DNA from: a virus
DNA length: 37,970 nucleotides
Reading direction: 5' to 3' (one strand)
IMG/VR virus record: IMGVR_UViG_3300042362_000122
Coordinates: 1 to 37,970 of that record
Both the position numbers and the translations under genes were made by a program. Shown here one piece after another: positions 1-37,970 of the stretch. The notes under the pieces were generated by a model. That model had not been told where the DNA came from and ran no database searches. It worked only from the letters and a program-made list of their open reading frames with translations. Position 1 is the stretch's first letter. Every line of letters starts with the position of its first letter.

Positions 1-127
1 ATTTGTGCAAAGTCAACATTAACGGCCTCACCAATAACTCAATGGGTGAAAATGGCCTGTGCATTTCGGGTTACGGGGCCATTCTCAAAGGTAAGCCTAC
101 TGAATCGTCTGTGATTTGCGTCAGCGG
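1..127. repeat. 127-bp terminal overlap, left copy
   Basis: These bases are identical to 37844-37970. The tailspike frame continues without a break through the overlap, so the molecule is circular or circularly permuted and the window was cut inside a gene. A length of exactly 127 matches a common maximum assembler k-mer, which makes an assembly overlap more likely than a packaged terminal repeat. One copy should be removed, leaving 37,843 bp. Confidence 0.95.
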
Positions 128-1043
128 CGCGGTCGCGGGGACACCGATTGTGCCTCCAATCAGCACTTACGCAAACGGGTTGCGAATTGAAGGGTTTACG
201 ATTGACATGACGGGGATGCCAGCCGCCGCGTCTACCTATGCAATTGCAATTCAGTTGAGCTACAACAGTTCAATTGAAGACATCCATGTCATCTACGAGC
301 CCAACGCTGGCGGTGGTTTGTATCTCGGCAATCAAGTTTACACATACGCTGTTCGAAACTTGAACACCACTCGCGTGTGGCTACTTGGTTTTAACAACAC
401 CACCAACCAAACCAGCACTTGCAGCTTTTGGAGTCTTGTTGCAAACCAAGTGATTATCAAAAACTGCTTTGATATCTCGTTTTTTGCTCCGACCATTCAA
501 GGCTCGTTGAATCACTTTGTGCTTGATGACGCCAACACCATCAACATTATTGGTGGCGATCTTGAGGGAACAGGCGGGTATGTTTACGAGTTTTTGAACT
601 CTACGCGCAACGTCAACTCTATCGCCAACACTCCGGGCGGGTACACGAACGCAACGTACTCCACCGGGTTGGCGTACAACTCTAATTTGTCTGACCGCCC
701 TCCATTCGGTGGTCAAGCCATAGGCACTTATGGCCGCGTCAACAGCCCCGGCCGCGTGATTCTTTCCGCAACGACAGCCCAAACAATTTACGAATTTTTG
801 GACACTGCTGCTAACCAAGGCACCGGGCTTGTTGCTGTGTTTGGTGACGATGGTAGCAACGGGTTTGCTGATCTTGTGCTTTGCGCTTACAGCGCAGTGG
901 CGGTTGTGTCGTCTAACACTATGTATGGCTCCCCGCCAACACGAACCTACACGTTCACAAATAACCAGCTCAAACTTGCTAGGTCAGCCGCCACCAGCGG
1001 ATCAATTAAAGCGGTGCTGACTGAATTTCTCACCTCCAACTGA
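1..1043 (+). CDS. Tailspike, C-terminal part (gene begins at 37009)
   Basis: This is the 3' part of a gene that starts at 37009 and crosses the circular junction. The first full codon here is at base 3, and base 3 equals base 37846 in the same frame. The joined protein is about 625 residues. This part is rich in Asn, Thr, Ser and Gly with short repeating strands, as expected of a right-handed beta-helix spike that binds or cuts surface polysaccharide, followed by a C-terminal trimerisation-type region. No catalytic residues can be assigned by eye. The DNA is clearly AT-richer than the head genes and uses relaxed codons, which suggests exchange with other phages. It is followed 10 bp later by a tail fibre gene. 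The gene is complete once the genome is closed. Confidence 0.85.
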   Translation, partial: LCKVNINGLTNNSMGENGLCISGYGAILKGKPTESSVICVSGAVAGTPIVPPISTYANGLRIEGFTIDMTGMPAAASTYAIAIQLSYNSSIEDIHVIYEPNAGGGLYLGNQVYTYAVRNLNTTRVWLLGFNNTTNQTSTCSFWSLVANQVIIKNCFDISFFAPTIQGSLNHFVLDDANTINIIGGDLEGTGGYVYEFLNSTRNVNSIANTPGGYTNATYSTGLAYNSNLSDRPPFGGQAIGTYGRVNSPGRVILSATTAQTIYEFLDTAANQGTGLVAVFGDDGSNGFADLVLCAYSAVAVVSSNTMYGSPPTRTYTFTNNQLKLARSAATSGSIKAVLTEFLTSN

Positions 1044-1053
1044 AGGTTGAATC

Positions 1054-1905
1054 ATGGCCGATCTTAAAATTTCTCAGCTTACCGGCGCCAGCACACCTCT
1101 TGCGGGGACAGAAGTTGTTCCGTTGGTGCAAAGCAGCACAACCAAAAAGGTCAGCGTTGCAAACTTGACGGCTGGCCGCACCGTTGATGTGGCTGTTCTT
1201 TTGGCAAACAGCACAAGTGTTGATGGCAACTGGAAAGTTCAAACCAACGCGTCAGCATCTGGGCTAGCTGGTATCGGCGTAAACAACAACGGCGGCTACG
1301 GCGCCTATTTGATTTACGACAACAGCGGGCGTTACGCGGGCGGCGGCGCGGCCATTCGCAACATCGCCAACACGCCGATCTACATTGAAACCAACAACAC
1401 TATCGTCGGCCAGTTTGATACGTCTGGAAATTACGTTCCCGCCACCGCAGGTAAAGGCATCAACTTCACCGCCAACACCAACGCGCCAGGGATGACGAGC
1501 GAGTTGCTGAACTGGTATGAGGAGGGGACTTGGACGCCTGTTCTCACGCCAAGCACAAGCGGCAGCATTACGTTGACTTCTCCAACAAACTCCATGCGCT
1601 ATACCCGCGTTGGACGGTTGGTGACGCTGACGGGGCTTATAGATGTGGCATCGGTGTCATCCCCAGTGGGTGACCTACGTCTAACCGGTATTCCTTTTAA
1701 TGTTGGCGGCTCTGGCGCAGGTTCTGTCAGTGTGTACGGCCTTGGCACCACCAGCACGGCCACTGCCTATCAAGTGCTTGTTGATAGCGGCAGCGCAACT
1801 ACAATGTTCATCCGTGGGTATAACGCAGGTAGTCAAGTCGCCACAGTTGCAAACAATGTGCAAGGTGGATCGGGGTTTTATTTGACAATCCAATACACCG
1901 TTTAA
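1054..1905 (+). CDS. Tail fibre / receptor-binding protein
   Basis: The protein has 283 residues. It begins with a short virion-anchoring motif (ADLKISQLTGASTPLAGTE, then VPLVQ and KKVSVANLT) that I recognise from many tail fibre and collar proteins of aquatic podoviruses. The middle (about 60-150) is Gly/Asn-rich. The C-terminal half begins with NWYEEGTWTPVLTP near residue 150, continues with a YTRVGRLVTLTG-type strand pattern and GIPF near residue 210, and looks like a beta-sandwich receptor-binding domain found at fibre tips. The ATG at 1054 lies 10 bp after the tailspike stop and has only a weak ribosome site. It sits between two beta-helix tailspikes and shares their lower GC. The receptor is unknown. 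Confidence 0.75.
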   Translation: MADLKISQLTGASTPLAGTEVVPLVQSSTTKKVSVANLTAGRTVDVAVLLANSTSVDGNWKVQTNASASGLAGIGVNNNGGYGAYLIYDNSGRYAGGGAAIRNIANTPIYIETNNTIVGQFDTSGNYVPATAGKGINFTANTNAPGMTSELLNWYEEGTWTPVLTPSTSGSITLTSPTNSMRYTRVGRLVTLTGLIDVASVSSPVGDLRLTGIPFNVGGSGAGSVSVYGLGTTSTATAYQVLVDSGSATTMFIRGYNAGSQVATVANNVQGGSGFYLTIQYTV

Positions 1906-1915
1906 AGAGTTGACC

Positions 1916-3211
1916 ATGAGCCTGACAAAAGCCACTTACAGCATGATTGACGGTGCGCCCGTCAATATCTTGGATTACGGCGCAGACCCAACGGGGGCGA
2001 CAGATAGCGCCGCTGCTTTTGCGGCGGCGTTTGCTGCTTCCACAACGGTGTACGCTCCCGCCGGAACGTATCTTGTCAATTCGCAAATTCAAATCCCGTC
2101 TTCAGGCACGCTTTTTGGGGAAAACAAGACCAACACAATTATAAAAGCGGGCGCGTTTGCGCAAAATGTGATCGCATTGCCGCAAAGTAACTACAACGTC
2201 AGAATTAGGCGACTGAGCATAGATTGCAATTCTTTGGCTTCTCAAGGTATTGTTTCTTCGTCTACTACGAACGGCGAAGCTGCGCACTTGTTGATTGAAG
2301 ATGTTGCTGTCTACAACAGTATTGGCAAAAATATCAATCTGAAATACATGACTTACGCTGTGTTGCGCGATGTGTATTGCAACAACATTGCCGCGAACGG
2401 TTTGGCGTATGGCTTGTATCTGGAAAACTGCAACAACTGTGAAATTCACGGGGGTTTGTACTACAACAACAAACTTGGCTCTGCATACTTGCTGAACAGT
2501 GCAACAAACTTATTTCTTGGCGCACGTTTCTACAATGACTCAACGGTTACCACGCCGAACCTGATGTCTGTGGAAAACTCATTCGGCAACGACGTTGTAA
2601 ATTGCACTTTTGAGCCACAAGGCAGTGCCAACGTCACAACAAATATCAGTGTTGTTGGAACAACCGGGGCACTTAATTGCACCGATAACAGTTTTATTAA
2701 CTGCACATTTTTGGGCCTTGCGAACACATCAACGCATGTTATCGCTGTGGGTACAGCAGCGGCTGCATATAAAACAAAAATTGAAAATTGCAAGTTCATA
2801 AAGCCCACGTCTACATCGTCTATTTTGCTCACAAACCAAGCAAACACTTTGATAATGGACTGCGTTGATTTAGTGGCTTACGACACGCCAACGTACGCGG
2901 ATGTCAGCATCACCAACAACAGCGGTAATGCCTATTCCGTGCGCACGATTGTCAATGGCGCAAGTGTGGTTGATCCGCTGACAAATAACACCGGAAATCT
3001 TGGGAATTCCTCTTTGAAGTGGGCGGGAGCATACGCCACAACATTTTTTGTTGGCCCCTCGTCTGTTAAATTTACCTCTGGTTCTGGGACGCCCGAAGGC
3101 GCTGTTACCGCACCCGTAGGTTCTTTGTTTACCCGCACTGATGGCGGTGCAAACACAACGCTGTATGTAAAAGAATCTGGAACAGGCAACACTGGCTGGG
3201 TTGCTAAATGA
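1916..3211 (+). CDS. Second pectate-lyase-like tailspike
   Basis: The protein has 431 residues and starts at the ATG at 1916, not at the in-frame TTG 6 bp upstream. The N-terminus (SLTKATYSMIDGAPVNILDY, then GADPTGATDS) is the standard entry into a Pectate_lyase_3-type right-handed beta-helix, with a short capping helix before the first coils. The next 300 residues show repeated short strands with Asn ladders (for example ENCNNCEIHGG). The C-terminus (GSLFTRTDGGANTTLYVKES, ending NTGWVAK) is a small domain often seen at the ends of phage spikes. It most likely recognises or degrades capsule or LPS. It shares the GADPTG-TDS motif with the tailspike at the window ends, so the two may be complementary specificities or a tiered assembly. 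The stop is directly followed by a promoter. Confidence 0.82.
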   Translation: MSLTKATYSMIDGAPVNILDYGADPTGATDSAAAFAAAFAASTTVYAPAGTYLVNSQIQIPSSGTLFGENKTNTIIKAGAFAQNVIALPQSNYNVRIRRLSIDCNSLASQGIVSSSTTNGEAAHLLIEDVAVYNSIGKNINLKYMTYAVLRDVYCNNIAANGLAYGLYLENCNNCEIHGGLYYNNKLGSAYLLNSATNLFLGARFYNDSTVTTPNLMSVENSFGNDVVNCTFEPQGSANVTTNISVVGTTGALNCTDNSFINCTFLGLANTSTHVIAVGTAAAAYKTKIENCKFIKPTSTSSILLTNQANTLIMDCVDLVAYDTPTYADVSITNNSGNAYSVRTIVNGASVVDPLTNNTGNLGNSSLKWAGAYATTFFVGPSSVKFTSGSGTPEGAVTAPVGSLFTRTDGGANTTLYVKESGTGNTGWVAK

Positions 3212-3285: not shown

Positions 3286-4074
3286 ATGAACGACGAAAGT
3301 CAAAACTTAGCGGAAGTTGAATCCGCGCAAGCCCCCGAGGTGACGGCCACCACGGATCAGGCACAAAATGCGCCGGAAGTCGCTGAACAGAGCAACGAAC
3401 AGGCTGAGGAAAAGAAATTCTCCCAAGCTGAAATCGATGCGATGATCAGCAAGCGCCTCGCAAGAGAGCAACGCAAATGGGAACGAGAGCAAAGGTTCAA
3501 GGCGGCAACGCCCGAGCTGTCTGCTACGCCCCCGTCGCAGGAACAGTTTGAGTCGACCGAAGCTTACGCGGAAGCGCTGGCTGAACGGAAAGCTGCAGAG
3601 CTGCTTGCGCGCCGGGAAGCAGAGCGCCAGCAGGCCGAAACTCTTGAGAGCTACCATGAGCGCGAAGAGGAAGCACGCACCAAGTACGAGGACTTTGAAC
3701 AAGTCGCTTACAACCCGCGCATCCCGATCACGCAAGTGATGGCCGAGACGATTCAGGCGTCTGACGTTGGGCCTGAGGTGGCTTACTACCTTGGCTCCAA
3801 TCCGAAAGAGGCCGATCGCATCGCCAAGTTGTCGCCGTTCTTGCAGGCGAAAGAGATTGGGAAGATCGAGGCCAAATTGGCCGACAATCCTCCCGTAAAG
3901 AAATCGTCGAGCGCCCCAACGCCGATCACGCCTGTCACCCCTCGGGGCGGCAACGCAAGGGTTCTGGACACGACTGACCCGCGCTCCATCAAGGAGATGT
4001 CGACGTCAGAGTGGATCGAAGCCGAGCGCCAACGGCAGATCAAAAAATGGGATGCTCAACAACGTGCCCGCTAA
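3286..4074 (+). CDS. Capsid scaffold protein
   Basis: The protein has 262 residues, is strongly charged and lies immediately upstream of the coat gene, the usual place for a scaffold. Residues 1-45 are acidic and rich in Glu, Gln and Ala. Residues 45-135 are predicted helical or coiled coil with many Glu, Arg and Lys (FSQAEIDAMISKRLAREQRK). Residues 185-215 form a Pro/Ser/Thr linker. The C-terminus is basic and helical (WIEAERQRQIKKWDAQQRAR), as expected of a scaffold tail that binds coat protein. It would shape the procapsid and leave before or during DNA packaging. The ATG at 3286 follows the promoter leader. Function rests on position and composition. No protease domain is visible. Confidence 0.75.
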   Translation: MNDESQNLAEVESAQAPEVTATTDQAQNAPEVAEQSNEQAEEKKFSQAEIDAMISKRLAREQRKWEREQRFKAATPELSATPPSQEQFESTEAYAEALAERKAAELLARREAERQQAETLESYHEREEEARTKYEDFEQVAYNPRIPITQVMAETIQASDVGPEVAYYLGSNPKEADRIAKLSPFLQAKEIGKIEAKLADNPPVKKSSSAPTPITPVTPRGGNARVLDTTDPRSIKEMSTSEWIEAERQRQIKKWDAQQRAR

Positions 4075-25639: not shown

Positions 25640-27964
25640 ATGACAAAACAGGCAACTATGCAATTTCTGGAATTTCTGACAGGACTGGCGCCGGAGGGAG
25701 AGACGGCGCTGATCGTGCGGCAGAAACCGCAGCGCAAGGACGGCGAGATTCAGCTGCACGCTGACGGGGCCGTCAAGTGCACATGGCCGGCGTACCTGCC
25801 CGACATCAAACGCATCAAGGACGATCAGGCATGGTACGGCAACACCGCCAGCTTCATCGTCGATCGCTTCCGCGACGGCCACATCAGCGCCGGCGCTGCC
25901 AATTGCGAGTACTGCCTTGTGCTGGTGCTCGACGATATTGGCACCAAGTCCAAAGAACCCTCACTGGCGCCGACGTGGAAGATGGAGACGTCGCCCGGTA
26001 GCTTTCAGTGGGGCTACGCCTTCAGCGACGACCAGCCCACCAAGGCCGAGTTCTCTGCGGCCATCAAGGCCATCGCCGACGCCGGCTACACCGACCCCGG
26101 GGCGATCAACGCTGTCAGAAACTTCAGGCTGCCGGGCTCGATCAATCTGAAGCCCGGCCGCAACAACTTCGCGGCCAAGCTGGCCGAGTTCCACCCCGAG
26201 CGTGAGTTCTCCCTGCAAGAGATATGCGACGCCCTCGGCGTCGTGCCGGCCGAAGCCGACTCGCTGACCGTGCGGCCCATTCGCGTGCACGACACCGGCG
26301 GCGACGACGTCTTTGCGTGGCTGTCCGAGAAGGGGCTGGTGCTGCGCAACCCGAACCCTGAGGGCTGGGCCGGCGTCATCTGCCCGAACCACACCGAGCA
26401 CACCGACGGCAACCCAGAGGGCCGCTACCTGCCGGCCTCGCGGGCCTACTGCTGCCTGCACTCGCACTGCATCGACTTCGACACCAAGACCTTTCTTCAG
26501 TGGGTGGCCGACAACGGCGGCCCCAAGCATGACCCGGGCATTCGCGACGACCTGATGGCGTCGGTCATGCACGATGCCCTCCAGAAGTTGGAGCCCACCA
26601 CGTTCTTCACCGACGACGCTGCCAAGGTCATCGAGGAGGTCGAGCGCAAGGAGGTCGGCCGGCTGCAGAAGGCGCAGTGGTATGAACGATTCGCCTACGT
26701 CCAGACTGACGACAGTTACTTCGACATGATCGACCGGCGCGAGATCAGCCGGGGCACGTTTAACGCCATCTTCCGGCATGTGTCGTGCCGCTCGATCCAC
26801 AACCAGCGCAAGGTCGAGGCCAGCGTGTGCTTCGACGAGAACCGCCAGAGCATGAATGCCAAGACCCTGATCGGGATCACCTACGCCGCCGGCGAGTCGG
26901 TGCTGGTGGCCCGGGACGGCGACGTCTACGGCAACCGCTGGCGAGACGCCCGGCCGGTCGTGGACAAGCGCGGCCTTGCGTCCGTGACGCCGTGGCTGGA
27001 GCACTGCGCGGCGCTGGTGCCTGATGCCAGCGAGCGCGAGCACCTGTTCAACGTCATGGCGTACAAGGTGCAGCACCCGGAAGTCAAGATCAATCACGCT
27101 GTGCTGCACGGCGGCGATCAGGGCTGCGGCAAGGACACCATGTGGGCGCCCTTCATCTGGGCCATCTGCGGCCCGGGCATGAAGAACCGGGGCTTGCTGG
27201 ACAACGACACGCTCAACAGCCAGTGGGGCTATCAGCTGGAGTCCGAGATTCTCATCATCAATGAGCTGAAGGAGCCAGAGGCGCGGGAGCGCCGGGCGCT
27301 GGCGAACAAGCTCAAGCCCATCATCGCGGCCCCGCCGGAGATGCTGCCGATCAACCGTAAGGGTTTGCACCCATACGACATGGTCAACCGCATGTTTGTG
27401 CTCGCGTTCTCCAACGACCCTGTGCCGATCTCGATTGACAGCCAAGACCGGCGCTGGTTCTGCATATGGTCGTCGGCCCCGCGCATGAATCCTGACGCGG
27501 CCTTGAAGCTGTGGAACTGGTACAAGGGCGGCGGCTTTGAGGCGATCGCCAGCTGGCTGTACGCCCGTGATGTGAGCGCGTTCAATCCTGCGGCGTCGCC
27601 GTCATGGACAGAATTCAAGGCCAACCTTGTCGAACACGGCATGAGCCTTGCCGAGTCGTATCTGGTCGACTTGATGCGCGAGCGCAAGGGTGAGTTCGCC
27701 CGGGGCGTGGTCGGCTCGCCGTTCCACGCGCTGTGCGACCGTCTGGCCGGTGCTGCGCCGTCGGGCGTCAAGGTGCCTCAGGCTGCGCTGCTGCACGCGC
27801 TCAAAGAGGCCAACTGGGTTGACCTTGGACGTGTATCGTCCGGCGACCTGCCCAGCAAAAAGCACCTGTTCTGCGCGCCCGATATGGTCGGCATAGTCAG
27901 CAAGTCTGAAATGCGTCGGCTGGTCGAGGAGGCGCCTCCGCTGCGCATGGCACTTGTGAAGTGA
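25640..27964 (+). CDS. Primase-polymerase / SF3 helicase replication protein
   Basis: The protein has 774 residues. The N-terminal domain looks like an archaeo-eukaryotic (RepB/PrimPol-type) primase: LVLDD with D98 and D99, then RNFRLPGSINLKPGR at 160-174. Residues 248-277 form a candidate zinc site (C248, H251, C271 or C272, H274, C277). The C-terminal half is a DUF5906/D5-like SF3 helicase: Walker A GGDQGCGKDT at 491-500, Walker B ILIINE at 537-542, sensor AFSND at 589-593 and arginine finger DRR at 603-605. It should open the origin, unwind and prime. Repeats that could be its binding sites begin 3 bp after its stop. Confidence 0.88.
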   Translation: MTKQATMQFLEFLTGLAPEGETALIVRQKPQRKDGEIQLHADGAVKCTWPAYLPDIKRIKDDQAWYGNTASFIVDRFRDGHISAGAANCEYCLVLVLDDIGTKSKEPSLAPTWKMETSPGSFQWGYAFSDDQPTKAEFSAAIKAIADAGYTDPGAINAVRNFRLPGSINLKPGRNNFAAKLAEFHPEREFSLQEICDALGVVPAEADSLTVRPIRVHDTGGDDVFAWLSEKGLVLRNPNPEGWAGVICPNHTEHTDGNPEGRYLPASRAYCCLHSHCIDFDTKTFLQWVADNGGPKHDPGIRDDLMASVMHDALQKLEPTTFFTDDAAKVIEEVERKEVGRLQKAQWYERFAYVQTDDSYFDMIDRREISRGTFNAIFRHVSCRSIHNQRKVEASVCFDENRQSMNAKTLIGITYAAGESVLVARDGDVYGNRWRDARPVVDKRGLASVTPWLEHCAALVPDASEREHLFNVMAYKVQHPEVKINHAVLHGGDQGCGKDTMWAPFIWAICGPGMKNRGLLDNDTLNSQWGYQLESEILIINELKEPEARERRALANKLKPIIAAPPEMLPINRKGLHPYDMVNRMFVLAFSNDPVPISIDSQDRRWFCIWSSAPRMNPDAALKLWNWYKGGGFEAIASWLYARDVSAFNPAASPSWTEFKANLVEHGMSLAESYLVDLMRERKGEFARGVVGSPFHALCDRLAGAAPSGVKVPQAALLHALKEANWVDLGRVSSGDLPSKKHLFCAPDMVGIVSKSEMRRLVEEAPPLRMALVK

Positions 27965-31346: not shown

Positions 31347-31817
31347 ATGTTCAAGAGTCTTCCGCTTACCCTTCGTGAAGTGCGCGCCACAGAGGCGACG
31401 CTGGAGCGCATTTACGAATCTGCGTATTTGGGATTGAAGGGTGATGCACTGGCGCTGGCTGCTGGATTACTTCCAGTCGAGTACAACCGACTCAAAGAGC
31501 TTGACCAAATGGCCCAATTGGCCGAACAAAAGGGGCGCGCTGACAGTGAACGCGAGAACAGCCAGCATCTGCTCAACGCCGCCCGGGCGGGCGACGCAAA
31601 AGCCGCGCTTGCTATCCTCCAGCACACCCACGGCTGGGTTGCCAAACAAGCCATCTCCGTCGAGGTCGACCAGCGCATCAGCGTCATCGACGCCCTGCGC
31701 GCTGCTGAGAGCAGGGTCATCGACGGCGCAGTCACAGAAGTGATCGAAAACCAGCCCAGCCCCACGCTACCCAAGCGCGTAGAGAACACGAATGCAGAAG
31801 CCCATCTACAGTCCTGA
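31347..31817 (+). CDS. terS: Small terminase subunit (probable)
   Basis: The protein has 156 residues and overlaps the large terminase start by 26 bp, the usual position. Residues 15-55 are helical with a helix-turn-helix-like part (TLERIYESAYLGLKGDALAL, then AAGLLPVEYNRLKEL). A central coil follows (QLAEQKGRADSERENSQHLL). The segment DAKAALAILQHTHGWVAKQ is seen in many phage small terminases. The end is a Pro/Thr tail. It should recognise the packaging site and stimulate the motor. The ATG at 31347 is preceded by a non-canonical ribosome site. Confidence 0.75.
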   Translation: MFKSLPLTLREVRATEATLERIYESAYLGLKGDALALAAGLLPVEYNRLKELDQMAQLAEQKGRADSERENSQHLLNAARAGDAKAALAILQHTHGWVAKQAISVEVDQRISVIDALRAAESRVIDGAVTEVIENQPSPTLPKRVENTNAEAHLQS

Positions 31818-33318
31818 GGACGAACAGCTCTTGATGACCCGGCTCTGGGGGCCGGCGGTCAAGGACGACCCCGAGGCGTTCGTGCTGTTCGCCTTCCCGT
31901 GGGGGCAGGAGAACACGCCGCTGGCAAAGTACAAGGGCCCGCGCATGTGGCAGCGCCAAGTGCTGCGCGACATCAAGGAGCACATCCAGCGCAACAAGGG
32001 CCAGCTGAACATGGACACGCTGCGCGAGGCGGTCAGTTCTGGGCGAGGCATCGGCAAGTCAGCTTTGGTCAGCTGGCTGATCTTGTGGATGCTGTCCACG
32101 CGGATCGGATCGAGCGTCGTTGTCAGCGCCAACTCCGAGGCGCAGCTGCGCTCGGTGACGTGGGGCGAGCTGACCAAGTGGTCGACGATGGTGATCAACG
32201 CCCACTGGTGGGAGATCAGCGCGACCAAGTTGATGCCGGCCAAGTGGCTGACGGACATCGTCGAGCGCGACCTCAAGAAGGGCACGCGCTACTGGGCCGC
32301 TGAGGGAAAGCTGTGGTCAGAGGAGAACCCCGACAGCTACGCCGGTGTGCACAACCACGACGGCATGATGCTGATCTTCGACGAGGCCAGCGGTATCCCC
32401 GACTCGATCTGGTCGGTGGGCGCGGGCTTCTTCACGGAGAACATCCTCGACAGGTACTGGTTTGCGTTCAGCAACCCACGGCGCAACACGGGGTACTTCT
32501 TTGAGTGCTTCCACGCCAAGCGCGACTTCTGGTCGACGCGGCAAGTGGACGCCAGAACGGTTGAGGACACGGACAAGCAGGTCTACCAGCAGATCATCGA
32601 CGAGTACGGCGAGGACTCCTCACAGGCCAAGGTCGAGGTGTATGGGGAGTTCCCCTCAGCTGGCGACGATCAGTTCATCACGCCGATGCTGGTGGCCGAC
32701 GCGGCCAAGCGCGCGCGGTACAAGGACGAGACGGCGCCGATCGTCATTGGCGTCGACCCGGCGCGAGGCGGGGCAGACTCGACGGTGATCGCCGTGCGGC
32801 AGGGCCGCGATCTGGTGGCGATCCACCGCTACCACGGCGAGGACACGATGACGATCGTGGGCCGCGTCATTGACGCGATCGAGGAGTACAAACCCACGTT
32901 GGTGGTGCTCGACGAAGGCGGCCTCGGGTACGGCATCTTGGACAGGCTGCATGAGCAGCGGTACAAGGTCGTCAGAGGCGTGAACTTCGGCTGGAAGGCC
33001 AAAAACCCGATTATGTACGGCAACAAACGGGCCGAATTGTGGGGGCAAATGAAGGATTGGCTCAAAACCGCGTCGATACCCAACGACAGGGGTTTGAAGT
33101 CCGATCTGACAGGGCCTACCATAAAACCGAATTCGTCGGGTACAATTTTCCTAGAAGGCAAAAAGGAGATGAAAGCCCGTGGGCTGGCCTCGCCTGATGC
33201 CGCCGATGCGCTGGCCGTGACATTCGCGTTTCCAGTCGCGCACCGGCAATATGTTGAAAAGCCCAGCAGTCGCGGTTATGCTGCGAACGGCGTGGCTACA
33301 TCTTGGATGGGGGCTTGA
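31792..33318 (+). CDS. terL: Large terminase subunit
   Basis: The protein has 508 residues. The ATPase has Walker A SSGRGIGKSA (82-91), Walker B MMLIFDEAS (192-200, D197/E198) and a coupling-like AFSNPRRNTG segment (225-234). The nuclease has VIGVDPARGGADST (D322), VVLDEGG (D374/E375) and SPDAADALA (D469, D472). All catalytic residues are intact. It pumps DNA into the procapsid and cuts it. Codon use relaxes after about 33000. The stop overlaps the next start by one base (TGATG). Confidence 0.95.
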   Translation: MQKPIYSPEDEQLLMTRLWGPAVKDDPEAFVLFAFPWGQENTPLAKYKGPRMWQRQVLRDIKEHIQRNKGQLNMDTLREAVSSGRGIGKSALVSWLILWMLSTRIGSSVVVSANSEAQLRSVTWGELTKWSTMVINAHWWEISATKLMPAKWLTDIVERDLKKGTRYWAAEGKLWSEENPDSYAGVHNHDGMMLIFDEASGIPDSIWSVGAGFFTENILDRYWFAFSNPRRNTGYFFECFHAKRDFWSTRQVDARTVEDTDKQVYQQIIDEYGEDSSQAKVEVYGEFPSAGDDQFITPMLVADAAKRARYKDETAPIVIGVDPARGGADSTVIAVRQGRDLVAIHRYHGEDTMTIVGRVIDAIEEYKPTLVVLDEGGLGYGILDRLHEQRYKVVRGVNFGWKAKNPIMYGNKRAELWGQMKDWLKTASIPNDRGLKSDLTGPTIKPNSSGTIFLEGKKEMKARGLASPDAADALAVTFAFPVAHRQYVEKPSSRGYAANGVATSWMGA

Positions 33319-33911: not shown

Positions 33912-36172
33912 TGGCAACGATCAACCAAGACCCCTCAGGCATCAACGGCGCAGGCAAAGTGTCTGCGCGCGGTGGCCCGTCGCCTGAAGCGACGCGCGAT
34001 GGCCGCGACAAGCTGCAGCTCATGCGCGATCGACTGCGCATGGCCCTTGGCGCGTACTCTGAGAGCCGCGAGGACGAACTGGACGATCTGCGCTTCATGG
34101 CTGGCTCGCCCGACAACCAGTGGCAGTGGCCGCAGGACGTGCTGGCGACCCGGGGCTCGGTGCAGGGGCAGACGGTCAACGCCCGGCCGTGCCTGACGAT
34201 CAACAAGCTGCCGCAGCATGTGCGGCAGGTCACCAACGAGCAGCGGCAGAACCGCCCCTCGGGCAAAGTCATCCCGGTCAACGATCAGGCCGACGTTGAG
34301 GTCGCAGAGGTGCTCAACGGCATCGTGCGGCACATCGAGTACATGTCGGACGCCGACGTGGCCTACGACACCGCGTGCGAGAACCAAGTCACCTACGGCG
34401 AGGGCTACATCCGTCTGCTGACCGAGTACTGCTACGAGGACTCGTTCGATCAGGACATCAAAATCGCCCGCATCCGCAACTCGTTCTCGGTCTACATGGA
34501 TCCGCTGATCCAAGACCCGTGCGGCGCGGATGCTGAGTGGTGCTTCATCACCGAAGACCTGACGAAGGAAGATTACCAGCGCATGTACCCCGACGCCTCG
34601 CCGGTGTCGACCATCATGGCGCAGGGCATCGGCGATCAGGACATCAGCCAGTGGATCACTGAGGACACGATCCGCATCGCTGAGTACTTCTACATCGACC
34701 ACAAGGACGACACGCTGTACCTCTACCCGGGGAACCAGACCGCGTTCAAGGGCTCGCCGCAGGACAAGACGCTGCGGGCGATGGGCCTGACGCCCATCCG
34801 CGAGCGCCGGGTCGACCGCAAGCGCGTGATGTGGATGAAGACCAACGGCTTTGAGACGCTGGAAGAGCGCGAATGGGCCGGCAACTGGATTCCTGTCATC
34901 CGTGTAATAGGCAACGAGTTCCAAGTCGACGGTCGCATCTTTATCTCGGGCATCGTGCGCAACGCCAAAGACGCGCAGCGCATGTACAACTACTGGACGA
35001 GCCAAGAGGCTGAGATGCTGGCGCTGGCCCCCAAGGCCCCCTTCATCGGCTACGGCGGCCAGTTTGAAGGCTACGAGTACCAGTGGAAGACGGCCAACAC
35101 TCAGAACTGGCCGTATCTGGAGGTCAACCCAGACGTCACAGACGGCTCTGGCAGCGTTTTGCCGCTGCCCCAGCGTGCAGCCCCGCCGCTACCCCAAACC
35201 GGCCTCATTCAGGCCAAAATGGGCGCATCTGAGGACATCAAGTCGACCACCGGGCAGTACGACGCAAGCCTTGGGCAGGTGTCCAACGAGCGCTCTGGCC
35301 GGGCAATTCTGGCCCGCGAGCGCCAAGCTGACGTCGGAACGTACCACTACGTCGACAATCTGGCCCGCGCGGTGCGCTACGTCACGCGCCAGCTGGTCGA
35401 TCTGATCCCGAAAATCTACGACACCCAGCGGATCGCTCGCATCATCGGCATTGATGGCGAGACGAACATGGTCAAGATCGACCCGACGCAGAGCGAGCCG
35501 GTCAAAAAGATCATTGATCAGACTGGCATCGTCATCGACAAGATTTACAACCCATCCGTGGGCCGCTACGACGTCGTGGTGACCACTGGCCCGAGCTATC
35601 TGACCAAGCGTCAAGAGGCAATGGACGCCATGTCGCAGATTCTGCAGGGCAACCCGAACCTGTGGGCCGTGGCCGGCGACCTGTTCGTCAAGAACATGGA
35701 CTGGCCGGGCGCCCAAGAGATGGCCGCCCGTCTGCGCAAGACAATTGACCCCAAACTGCTTGCCAACGAAGACGACGATCCAGCTCTGCAGGCTGCCAAT
35801 CAGCAGATTCAGTCGATGGCGCAGGAGATGCAGCAGATGTTTAACATGCTGCAGAACGTCAACCAGTCGATTGAGGCTCGGGACGTGCAAGTTCGTGAGT
35901 TTGAGGCCAAAGTCAAGGCATTTGATGCCGAAACCAAGCGGATTTCGGCCACAATTGCGGGTATGACGCCAGAACAAATCCAAGACATCGTGATGGGCAC
36001 GCTTGCGGCCGTGCAGGATGTGGGCGATTTGATCCCTCCGCAACAGATGCAAGGGCCTATCATGGCTGAGAGCCCCGGCATGGAGATGGAGATGGGTGAA
36101 ATGGCCCGTCAGGAAGAGGCCCAGCAGGCCACCCCGATGCCCAACGTCGTGCCACAAGGAGGCGCAGCATGA
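33911..36172 (+). CDS. Portal protein, P22-like
   Basis: The protein has 753 residues, close to P22 portal (725). Conserved parts: LRFMAGSPDNQWQWP (about 56-70), CLTINKLPQHVRQVTNEQRQ (about 95-114) with RPSGKVIPV, then EYMSDADVAYDTACENQVTY, NSFSVYMDP, and EDIKSTTGQYDASLGQ (about 440-455) with NERSGRAILARER. The C-terminus is a Gln-rich helix (QQIQSMAQEMQQMFNMLQNV), matching the long barrel of P22-type portals. It forms the dodecameric DNA channel. The end overlaps the next gene by ATGA. Confidence 0.92.
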   Translation: MATINQDPSGINGAGKVSARGGPSPEATRDGRDKLQLMRDRLRMALGAYSESREDELDDLRFMAGSPDNQWQWPQDVLATRGSVQGQTVNARPCLTINKLPQHVRQVTNEQRQNRPSGKVIPVNDQADVEVAEVLNGIVRHIEYMSDADVAYDTACENQVTYGEGYIRLLTEYCYEDSFDQDIKIARIRNSFSVYMDPLIQDPCGADAEWCFITEDLTKEDYQRMYPDASPVSTIMAQGIGDQDISQWITEDTIRIAEYFYIDHKDDTLYLYPGNQTAFKGSPQDKTLRAMGLTPIRERRVDRKRVMWMKTNGFETLEEREWAGNWIPVIRVIGNEFQVDGRIFISGIVRNAKDAQRMYNYWTSQEAEMLALAPKAPFIGYGGQFEGYEYQWKTANTQNWPYLEVNPDVTDGSGSVLPLPQRAAPPLPQTGLIQAKMGASEDIKSTTGQYDASLGQVSNERSGRAILARERQADVGTYHYVDNLARAVRYVTRQLVDLIPKIYDTQRIARIIGIDGETNMVKIDPTQSEPVKKIIDQTGIVIDKIYNPSVGRYDVVVTTGPSYLTKRQEAMDAMSQILQGNPNLWAVAGDLFVKNMDWPGAQEMAARLRKTIDPKLLANEDDDPALQAANQQIQSMAQEMQQMFNMLQNVNQSIEARDVQVREFEAKVKAFDAETKRISATIAGMTPEQIQDIVMGTLAAVQDVGDLIPPQQMQGPIMAESPGMEMEMGEMARQEEAQQATPMPNVVPQGGAA

Positions 36173-36531
36173 AAGCCGCAGATTTCGTCGGCATGTTGTT
36201 CTTGGCGCGGGATGTAGCCCATTCTGTGCACCTGAACACCCGCAGTTTTTCCAAACACATGGCCCTCAACACGTTCTATGACGAGATTGTGGACTTGGCC
36301 GACAAGTTTGCCGAGGCGTATCAGGGGCGGCACGGGCTGATCGGCCCTATCTCTCTGATGAGCGCCAAAAATACATCCAACATCCTCGATTTTCTGCAAG
36401 GGCAGATGGCCGAGATTGACGAATGCCGCTACGAAGTGTGTGACAAAACCGACACGCCGCTGCAAAATATCATTGATGAAATCTCTGGCTTGTACCTGAG
36501 CACGATCTACAAGCTGAAATTCCTCGCGTAA
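36169..36531 (+). CDS. Helical protein (DUF5856/Dps-like bundle)
   Basis: The protein has 120 residues, predicted as a four-helix bundle: FLARDVAHSVHLNTRSFSKH, then MALNTFYDEIVDLADKFAEA, FLQGQMAEIDECRYEVCD, and IIDEISGLYLSTIYKLKFL. It resembles phage DUF5856 proteins, which look ferritin/Dps-like. H and E residues at helix faces (H21, H30, E39) could be metal ligands, but this is not shown. It overlaps the portal stop by ATGA. It may be a head-associated protein or an intracellular Dps-like protein. Confidence 0.55.
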   Translation: MKAADFVGMLFLARDVAHSVHLNTRSFSKHMALNTFYDEIVDLADKFAEAYQGRHGLIGPISLMSAKNTSNILDFLQGQMAEIDECRYEVCDKTDTPLQNIIDEISGLYLSTIYKLKFLA

Positions 36532-36540
36532 GGAGCCGAC

Positions 36541-36843
36541 ATGGAACTTCTCAGACCCCTCTCCGATGCTGACTATCCCGGTCGCACGGTGGCCTACACC
36601 GGCACGGCCGGCAGCACCTCGACTTGGAACCCGGGCCCCGAGGGCGTGGTGGTCTGGTCTACGACCCCCTGCTATGTGGCTGTGGGCGTGGACGTGACGG
36701 CAACGACCGCCAGCACCCCGATTCCTGCGTACACCCCGATCCCGTTCTATCTGGAGCCCGGCTCCGGCGCACCGTGGCGGGTGAGCGCAATTCGTGTTGC
36801 CGACAGCGGCGACATCTACTGCAAGCCGATCAACATCCGATGA
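36541..36843 (+). CDS. Small structural protein
   Basis: The protein has 100 residues, beta-rich: TVAYTGTAGSTSTWNPGPEG, VVVWSTTPCYVAVGVDVT, then FYLEPGSGAPWRVSAIRVAD. The layout is like small jelly-roll virion proteins located near the portal in aquatic podoviruses. AAGGAG precedes the ATG at 36541 and the stop overlaps the next gene as ATGA. It could decorate the head or the portal vertex. No family name is recognised. Confidence 0.6.
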   Translation: MELLRPLSDADYPGRTVAYTGTAGSTSTWNPGPEGVVVWSTTPCYVAVGVDVTATTASTPIPAYTPIPFYLEPGSGAPWRVSAIRVADSGDIYCKPINIR

Positions 36844-37004
36844 GCTGGGGAATCGGCCTTCGCAACTCAGTGGCAATCGGCCTTGCAGGCATTGCCACGC
36901 TTTTTTCGGGCACCCGCGACAGCGGTGCCTCTGTAGGCAATCTTCTCACCGAGTCAGGCGACAACCTCACGCAAGAGGACGGCGGCCTGATCTTGTTGGA
37001 GTAA
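36840..37004 (+). CDS. Tiny protein before the tailspike
   Basis: The protein has 54 residues, starting by an ATGA overlap. A hydrophobic, Gly/Ala-rich first part (SVAIGLAGIATLFSG) is followed by an acidic end, NLLTESGDNLTQEDGGLILL. The TESGD.L..E.GG.ILLE pattern recurs at the ends of other phage structural proteins. It stops 4 bp before the tailspike. It could be a membrane-active or virion peptide. The function is unknown. Confidence 0.55.
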   Translation: MSWGIGLRNSVAIGLAGIATLFSGTRDSGASVGNLLTESGDNLTQEDGGLILLE

Positions 37005-37008
37005 CCAC

Positions 37009-37970
37009 ATGGCCGTGAACCTCTCACCTGTGGGCGGCGTCGCAGCCCAGTTTTTTACCAACAGCGGCGCTCCTCTGACCGGCGGCAAGATTTTCACCTA
37101 TCTGGCCGGCACCACCACGCCTGCTACGACCTACACAAACTCGCAGGGCAACGTCCAGTGGACGAACCCGATCGTGCTCAACGCAGCTGGCCGCGTGCCT
37201 TCTGGCGGTGAGATTTGGCTGACCGACGGCCTGCTGTACAAGTTCGTGCTCAAAGACGCTGACGACGTCACGATCGCCACTTACGACAACATCAGCGGCA
37301 TCAACAGCAACTTCGTTGCGTTTGTCAACCAGCAAGAGATCGTCACGGCCACCGCAGGCCAGACGGTGTTCAACCTTGGCATCAGCTACCAGCCGGGCAC
37401 CAACAGCCTGTCGGTGTTTGTGGACGGCGTAAACCAGTACGGCCCCGGCGCTCAGTACGCCTACACCGAGACTGACAGCGACACGGTGACGTTTACCAGC
37501 GGCCTGCACGTTGGCGCTGAGGTCAAGTTCACCACCACGCAGCAGCAAAGCGCGGGCGCTGTTTCGGCGGCCCAAGTGTCGTTCACTGGGTTCAAAGGAC
37601 AAGTCGGCACGGTTCAAGACCTAGCCGATAATGACGGCTCTAACTGGAGTGGCTTTCAACCTGCAGGCACGGGTGCAGTCGCTCGGTCAGCGCAGGAAAA
37701 AATGCGTGATGTGTTCAGCGTGTTGGACTTTGGCGCTGACCCGACCGGCGTGACTGACAGCACCACGGCAATCAATAACGCGCTGGCGGCAATCTACACT
37801 AGCGGCACGAAGGGCGCCAAACTTGTCTTTCCGCAAGGCACCTATTTGTGCAAAGTCAACATTAACGGCCTCACCAATAACTCAATGGGTGAAAATGGCC
37901 TGTGCATTTCGGGTTACGGGGCCATTCTCAAAGGTAAGCCTACTGAATCGTCTGTGATTTGCGTCAGCGG
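37009..37970 (+). CDS. Tailspike, N-terminal part (continues at base 1)
   Basis: The gene begins with the ATG at 37009 and runs off the right end, continuing to 1043 (about 625 residues in all). Residues 1-70 (NLSPVGGVAAQFFTNSGAPL, then TGGKIFTYLAGTTTP) form a head-binding domain widespread in podovirus tailspikes. Residues 105-185 form a T7-fibre-like beta domain (FVAFVNQQEIVTATAGQTVF, GPGAQYAYTETDSDTVTF). From about 235, VFSVLDFGADPTGVTDSTTA begins the Pectate_lyase_3-type beta-helix. Codon use and GC match the phage core up to about 37620 and then drop, so the gene appears chimeric. Confidence 0.88.
   Translation, partial: MAVNLSPVGGVAAQFFTNSGAPLTGGKIFTYLAGTTTPATTYTNSQGNVQWTNPIVLNAAGRVPSGGEIWLTDGLLYKFVLKDADDVTIATYDNISGINSNFVAFVNQQEIVTATAGQTVFNLGISYQPGTNSLSVFVDGVNQYGPGAQYAYTETDSDTVTFTSGLHVGAEVKFTTTQQQSAGAVSAAQVSFTGFKGQVGTVQDLADNDGSNWSGFQPAGTGAVARSAQEKMRDVFSVLDFGADPTGVTDSTTAINNALAAIYTSGTKGAKLVFPQGTYLCKVNINGLTNNSMGENGLCISGYGAILKGKPTESSVICVS
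37844..37970. repeat. 127-bp terminal overlap, right copy
   Basis: Identical to bases 1-127. See the left copy: it closes the circle inside the tailspike gene. Confidence 0.95.

Follow-up and report, generated by a model that had tools for sequence, protein, structure and literature searches.

Organization of the tailspike locus

The stretch of DNA analysed here (the window) comprises the 37,970 bases of a virus record. Both of its ends carry the same 127 bases (37844..37970 = 1..127, unstranded), and this identity of the contig ends indicates a circular molecule of 37,843 bases. Its genes follow in the order terminase, portal, small genes, tailspike, gene 2, gene 3, scaffold and coat; the portal is P22-like (Pfam E 2.2e-174), and the terminase is also recognised. 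The tailspike gene crosses the circular joint and consists of 37009..37843 plus 1..1043, amounting to 625 codons (625 aa). Its 5ʹ part, encoding residues 1–320, occupies 37009..37970 (+ strand) and continues at position 1 through the joint. The 3ʹ part, in which the receptor part runs to the stop codon (1..1043, + strand), is in continuous frame with 37009..37843.

Directly after the portal, a small gene at 36169–36531 matches DUF5856 and the PHROG family "starvation-inducible transcriptional regulator"; at the same place, phage DSL-LC05 (OR003940.1, our locus L001) has a gene annotated as a DNA binding protein. DSL-LC05 is a lake phage for which the consulted part of PMC10611076 gives Enterobacterales as the predicted host. 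It resembles the window in its order of terminase, portal, spike genes, scaffold and coat and has a related anchor (52% over residues 2–143). Unlike in the window, this anchor is a separate 170-aa gene that lacks a receptor part (L001 7602–8114); it is followed by a 205-aa gene and then by a 483-aa gene annotated as tailspike.

Domains of the tailspike

In P22-type tailspikes, the head-binding domain is a trimer bound to the tail hub. Residues 11–96 of the window's tailspike (37039..37296, + strand) fit this fold in both sequence and predicted structure: phmmer matched them to 7eeq at E 8.8e-11, a profile search reached E 2.3e-14, and their model superimposed on P22 1lkt with Z 11.4 and an rmsd of 1.9 over 84 aligned residues, although identity to P22 is only 23%. 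The Pan3 tailspike is similar in fold (Z 12.9), and the cyanophages Pam1 and Pan3 are also similar in sequence (E 2.3e-14 and 2.3e-12, respectively). The Pfam head-binding model found no match in the tailspike at E ≤1. Mean pLDDT of the anchor model was 70, with values of 72–92 in ten-residue blocks across residues 11–100. As in P22, Sf6, Pam1 and Pan3, the domain takes the N-terminal place on the spike, in a phage with a P22-like portal. Unlike in these P22-type tailspikes, it is followed by a second beta domain at about residues 104–184 (37318..37560, + strand), for which strands were modelled at 105–179 and fold matches were only middling (Z ≤6.4). A low-confidence linker follows at residues 182–218 (37552..37662, + strand), with pLDDT below 50 nearly throughout. 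In tblastn, the matches to relatives mostly stop near residue 192 and otherwise at 199–200.

Beyond the linker, a connector at residues 214–262 (37648..37794, + strand) resembles the N-terminal edge of 2vbe and 4urr (E about 4e-5), which we take to be Sf6 tailspike structures. A pectate-lyase-like stretch matching PF12708 spans residues 236–316 (37714..37956, + strand; E 3.4e-11, 43.8 bits against a gathering threshold of 27) in a query that ended at residue 320; the remainder, searched alone, gave no match. The structure model of the receptor part had a mean pLDDT of 43.5, too poor for a fold search, and its profile had no matches in the PDB at E 1. The pectate-lyase-type receptor part would most likely bind or cleave a host surface polysaccharide. 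Relatives of it were absent at E 1e-5 from 50,697 phage records and from the 63 stretches of genome contigs that matched two short peptide patterns, and an IMG/VR scan found them in 3 of 11 matched stretches, with a profile scan returning the same three loci, one of which (L083) carries an unrelated N-terminus. The corresponding IMG/VR scan with the anchor found relatives in 441 of 444 matched stretches.

Receptor parts are exchanged between related phages

Anchor relatives were collected with residues 1–200 (tblastn, IMG/VR), and the loci compared are the best 80 of 441, picked by likeness to the window's anchor; pairs drawn from them are not independent of one another. Behind the conserved anchor, these relatives carry unrelated receptor parts. 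Among 88 pairs whose anchors are 90–97% identical, 84 lacked receptor similarity (E 1e-3), 2 had partial similarity and 2 had receptors at least 90% alike. Similarity was also lacking in 55 of the 62 pairs, near-duplicates included, whose portals are at least 95% identical (1 partial, 6 at least 90% alike); with seven near-duplicate loci removed, receptor similarity was lacking in 49 of 51 such pairs. Most receptor pairs among the loci show no detectable similarity, and homologues were too few for a receptor tree.

The reverse case, in which the same receptor part sits on differing backbones or anchors, is found in L002/L003, in L083 and in the pairs L007/L024, L009/L066 and L050/L073, whose receptors are 97, 89 and 98% alike on anchors that are 79, 69 and 84% alike, respectively. 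The receptor part of L083, a stretch of 64% GC, is 41% identical to the window's over window residues 225–613, and the L083 N-terminus has no similarity to the anchor. An earlier, sequence-only reading of this DNA had proposed that the receptor part is a module exchangeable apart from the anchor. This proposal is borne out, by the comparison of loci and not by composition; exchange is better supported, and the composition argument weaker, than that reading had it.

The clearest case is that of L002 and L003, which share 1536 identical nucleotides from codon 163 of the tailspike gene (37495..37843, + strand), continuing across the joint to codon 45 of gene 2 (1..1187, + strand). The backbone of L002 is 97–98% identical to the window in DNA. 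L003 has a different backbone: its portal and that of L002 are 69% identical in protein, DNA identity is 76% over most of the portal gene, and L003 lies beside L012 and L023 in the portal tree. Between L002 and L003, the stretch 36171–37056 carries 20–39 mismatches per 90 columns, and mismatches thin out through the anchor. Within the block, ~50 mismatches (about 3%) separate the window from either of them. Since backbone and receptor have diverged to a similar degree between the window and L002, the block points to a recent move from an L002-like to an L003-like phage; on the simplest reading, the window stands on the donor side. The receptor has been on this backbone at least since the window and L002 split (both are at ~97%), and the exchange into the window's own lineage is older and unseen.

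The joint had been placed at residue 205, a position that the shared block does not uphold, since it starts inside the anchor and ends in the next gene. Exchange probably proceeds by homologous crossovers, one where the 3ʹ end of the anchor is conserved (codon ~163 in this case) and the other in the conserved 5ʹ part of gene 2. The start of the block adjoins residues 161–175, a stretch in which 36 anchors agree at 12 of the 15 positions; synonymous identity at the supposed crossover site is not raised (0.44–0.47).

The L003 junctions rest on one contig, and an assembler could fuse two phages within conserved DNA; moreover, no second contig was found with this receptor on an L003-like backbone. 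It is nevertheless very improbable that L003 is an assembly chimera and the clearest exchange an artefact. Contig names put L002 and L003 in different IMG datasets, L003 matches the window rather than L002 at 1188–1305, and exchange of the same kind is found in pairs without L003.

The anchor and the phage backbone

The virion anchor had been thought to stay in place while the receptor part changed. This stands in part: codons 1–30 mostly track the backbone, but later codons do so less, and anchor and portal groupings differ. Anchor trees place the window, together with L002, beside L003, L012 and L023 (SH-aLRT 99 for codons 1–180 and 100 for codons 1–100), whereas the portal tree places it with L067 and L042 (100); codons 101–180 alone gave a tree without resolution. 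In the comparison of trees, which the sequence-only reading had suggested as a check, the portal data reject a clade of the window, L002 and L003 (p-AU 1e-5).

Replacement of the whole gene, anchor included, in the window's lineage is a possibility to be taken seriously, if one that falls somewhat short of probable. The differing groupings argue for it, as do L013 and L074, with portals 99.4% and anchors 76.7% identical, and the 51 pairs whose portals reach 95% identity or more, in 49 of which codons 1–30 are more alike than codons 31–60. However, parts of codons 31–60 vary more in amino acids, which alone could yield the last pattern, and AU tests did not reject an anchor that follows the portal (p 0.30 and 0.155). 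Judging from such comparisons, anchors can apparently be exchanged as well.

A variable island up to the scaffold gene

The variable island extends past the end of the tailspike to the scaffold gene. Gene 2 (1054..1905, + strand; 283 aa) consists of a conserved 5ʹ part, an EEGTWTP joint at 1519–1539 and a diverged 3ʹ part. The 5ʹ part has relatives in 342 IMG/VR stretches, and a joint like NWYEEGTWTP occurs in gene 2 of 54 of the 80 loci (again the best 80 of 441). Gene 3 of L003 has a joint of this type as well. From about 1537 on, the window is similar to neither L002 nor L003, and similarity to L002 resumes at 3211; the end of gene 2 and gene 3 thus differ even between the window and L002. 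The 3ʹ part of gene 2 was considered as a swapped module and rejected: 874 of 1485 pairs are still similar there, and it is better named a fast-diverging domain.

Gene 3 (1910 or 1916..3211, + strand) encodes a second pectate-lyase-like spike (PF12708, E 3.7e-15) that lacks a head-binding domain, and it is unlike the gene 3 of L002 despite the 97–98% identical backbone. The right border of the island is formed by the scaffold gene (3286..4074, + strand), shortly before which the similarity to L002 returns. Where two loci have similar scaffold starts (35 pairs), the DNA 60–260 nt upstream has an identity of at most 0.50 in 28 pairs and of 0.77–0.91 in 7. The gap between tailspike and scaffold holds 2–4 ORFs of at least 80 aa in 33 of the 35 loci that cover both genes.

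A GC3 step within the tailspike gene

GC3 in 60-codon windows along the tailspike gene is 0.77–0.85 up to codon 200 and 0.50–0.67 from codon 181 on. The best change point is codon 184, where GC3 falls from 0.811 (180 codons) to 0.569 (434 codons; 2LLR 34.6). None of 2000 shuffles gave a step as strong (largest 2LLR 20.5), and neither part of the gene has a significant second step. The change-point fit gives a support range (2-lnL) of codons 175–202 (37531..37614, + strand), and both the step and the loss of homology coincide with the end of the second beta domain and the linker. The composition is therefore not uniform, and the GC-rich start followed by AT-richer DNA with relaxed codons, as reported from the sequence alone, is confirmed. 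The switch itself had been put at about residue 205 (37620), which lies just outside the support range, the real step being slightly upstream. The AT-richer stretch was said to run to 1043; it does run through the end of the gene, but it continues into genes 2 (GC3 0.57) and 3 (0.50), and the scaffold gene is at 0.65. Coat, portal and terminase have a GC3 of 0.80–0.84.

Ten other long genes of the window served as controls, and three of them have an internal GC3 step unmatched in 200 shuffles. The step in terL (31792–33318), at codon ~376, takes GC3 from 0.90 down to 0.58 with a 2LLR of 48.8, exceeding that of the tailspike, and the portal gene falls from 0.84 to 0.63 at codon ~579 (2LLR 25.3). 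The first ~15 codons of the gene at 25640 (25640–27964) have a GC3 of 0.33 against 0.86 in the remainder (2LLR 21.2); the real start codon of this gene may lie further downstream. An internal step of this kind is beyond chance, yet not specific to a chimera.

The GC3 step is shared by the group

Among the best 80 of 441 anchor loci, the gene extends for 60 codons or more past codon 192 in 79, and 72 of these, the window included, differ from one another; L001, L082, L083, L044 and L069 were left out of this set. GC3 after codon 192 is below GC3 before it in 71 of the 72 loci, with means falling from 0.535 to 0.372, and L010 is the sole exception. Four-fold sites fall likewise in 71 of 72 (0.527 to 0.363), and the drop is found in 62 of 63 loci when each receptor is counted once. 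It is seen for 16 of 17 amino acids. Individually, 52 of the 72 loci have a significant change point (≤1/100 shuffles), located at codons 159–234 in 45 of them, and 20 have none. Mean GC3 over the 72 loci in 20-codon bins is 0.46–0.61 to codon 180, 0.42 at codons 181–200 and 0.36–0.41 from codon 201, which describes a step and not a slope.

Since the drop is shared by 71 loci and that of the window ranks only 11th in size among the 72, the step belongs to the group and not to the window's phage in particular. Composition had been offered as evidence of the exchange. With such a drop in nearly every locus and a stronger internal step in terL, it proves no exchange, and the control genes and the 72 loci rule it out as proof of chimerism. 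A family-wide GC3 step at the border of anchor and receptor is not described in the titles and opening parts of abstracts listed by the literature searches.

What maintains the step

A recent import of the receptor part from an AT-richer donor, with the donor's codons still present, would account for a receptor GC3 of 0.57 beside 0.80 in coat and portal. A GC3 of 0.84 in the receptor part of the distant relative L083 is in keeping with this, since the receptor family need not be AT-rich. However, L002 carries the same receptor at a divergence about equal to that of the backbone, and the drop recurs in 71 of 72 loci across anchor GC3 values of 0.30–0.81. Furthermore, a regression on a common donor pool with partial amelioration needs a pool GC3 of 0.11–0.17 (bootstrap ranges 0.04–0.24 and 0.01–0.25), well below the mean of 0.37 that receptors actually have; this makes the simple import model unlikely, though not impossible. 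Overall, we regard recent import as improbable.

The step may instead have nothing to do with exchange and reflect codon selection or mutation bias that differs within genes, for example, because receptor domains are under less codon selection or because GC3 declines as a gene nears its end; this is a plausible account that we would stop a little short of calling probable. The steps in the window's terL and portal speak for it, and terL homologues (21 loci) fall too, their GC3 going from 0.64 to 0.50 across the five final bins. ORFs present in at most 4 loci have a mean GC3 of 0.447 and widely shared ORFs one of 0.558, against 0.377 for receptors, and the rare ones are the lower of the two in 49 of 58 loci; these ORFs were called mechanically, and some rare ones may be spurious. 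Such a difference would be expected if DNA that is rarely shared drifts or is under relaxed codon selection. Against this account, the profile over the 72 loci is a step and not a slope, and only 26 of 42 portals have a lower GC3 beyond codon 192 than up to it (means 0.650 and 0.679), far under the tailspike step.

Two general causes were considered and set aside. An effect of gene position is shown only weakly by the portals, and conservation is a weak predictor of GC3 (pooled rho 0.27 over 70 bins; rho 0.30 for anchor columns). Conservation was not significantly related to the window's own GC3 in any of five genes. In the 21 terL homologues, the fall is milder than in the window, and GC3 falls where the protein is well conserved, as it is over most of that stretch.

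A related question has been raised for 74 phages, in which host-preferred codons are commoner in head than in tail genes; copy number and lateral transfer are named as possible causes in the part of that study consulted (PMC2266997), and these pose the same question as the standing step here. Tentatively, and with less conviction than for selection or mutation bias within genes, the step could be a steady state that arises from how the DNA evolves and not from its origin. Codon selection, or recombination with homologous partners, would keep widely shared parts GC-rich, and parts that seldom meet a homologous partner would drift AT-ward in every lineage, whatever the GC content of the genome. 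The standing step is the least explained part of the finding.

A modular tailspike and its implications

Taken together, the gene is very probably the main tailspike of a P22-like podophage, with a receptor island that is exchanged within the group and a GC3 step that is a standing property of its modules. Residues 11–96 would fix the spike to the virion, a function suggested by their P22-type fold, and the second beta domain and the linker would connect them to the pectate-lyase-type receptor part. The latter forms part of a variable island, about 3.5 kb long, that lies between the anchor and the scaffold gene. The GC3 step would mark the edge of a module and not be the fingerprint of one recent import into the window's phage. 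Of the sequence-only reading, the exchangeable receptor module thus stands, whereas the use of composition as evidence, the border and the extent of the module do not.

Modular tailspike exchange is well known, and the locus shows an ordinary phage strategy in unusual detail. Modularity of anchor and receptor, with swapping across phage genera, is described in the consulted part of Pas et al. 2023 (PMC10408124). As far as that part goes, the present group differs in being uncultured, in having one exchange marked by a 1536-nt identical block and in the survey of GC3 over 72 loci. Likewise, distantly related Alteromonas phages have a common host-recognition module (PMC10579305); in the portion of that work consulted, the module is a tail fibre and a chaperone, whereas in the window it is a predicted beta-helix-type spike and two further genes.

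The locus provides a clean example from nature of uncultured phages exchanging a receptor although their backbones have diverged, and the borders of the shared block are mapped. It also provides a family-wide control: in this group a GC drop inside the tailspike gene, a feature often taken as foreign DNA, is the normal state and by itself neither dates nor proves an exchange. If the steady-state explanation were true, low GC would not mark a phage receptor gene as foreign.
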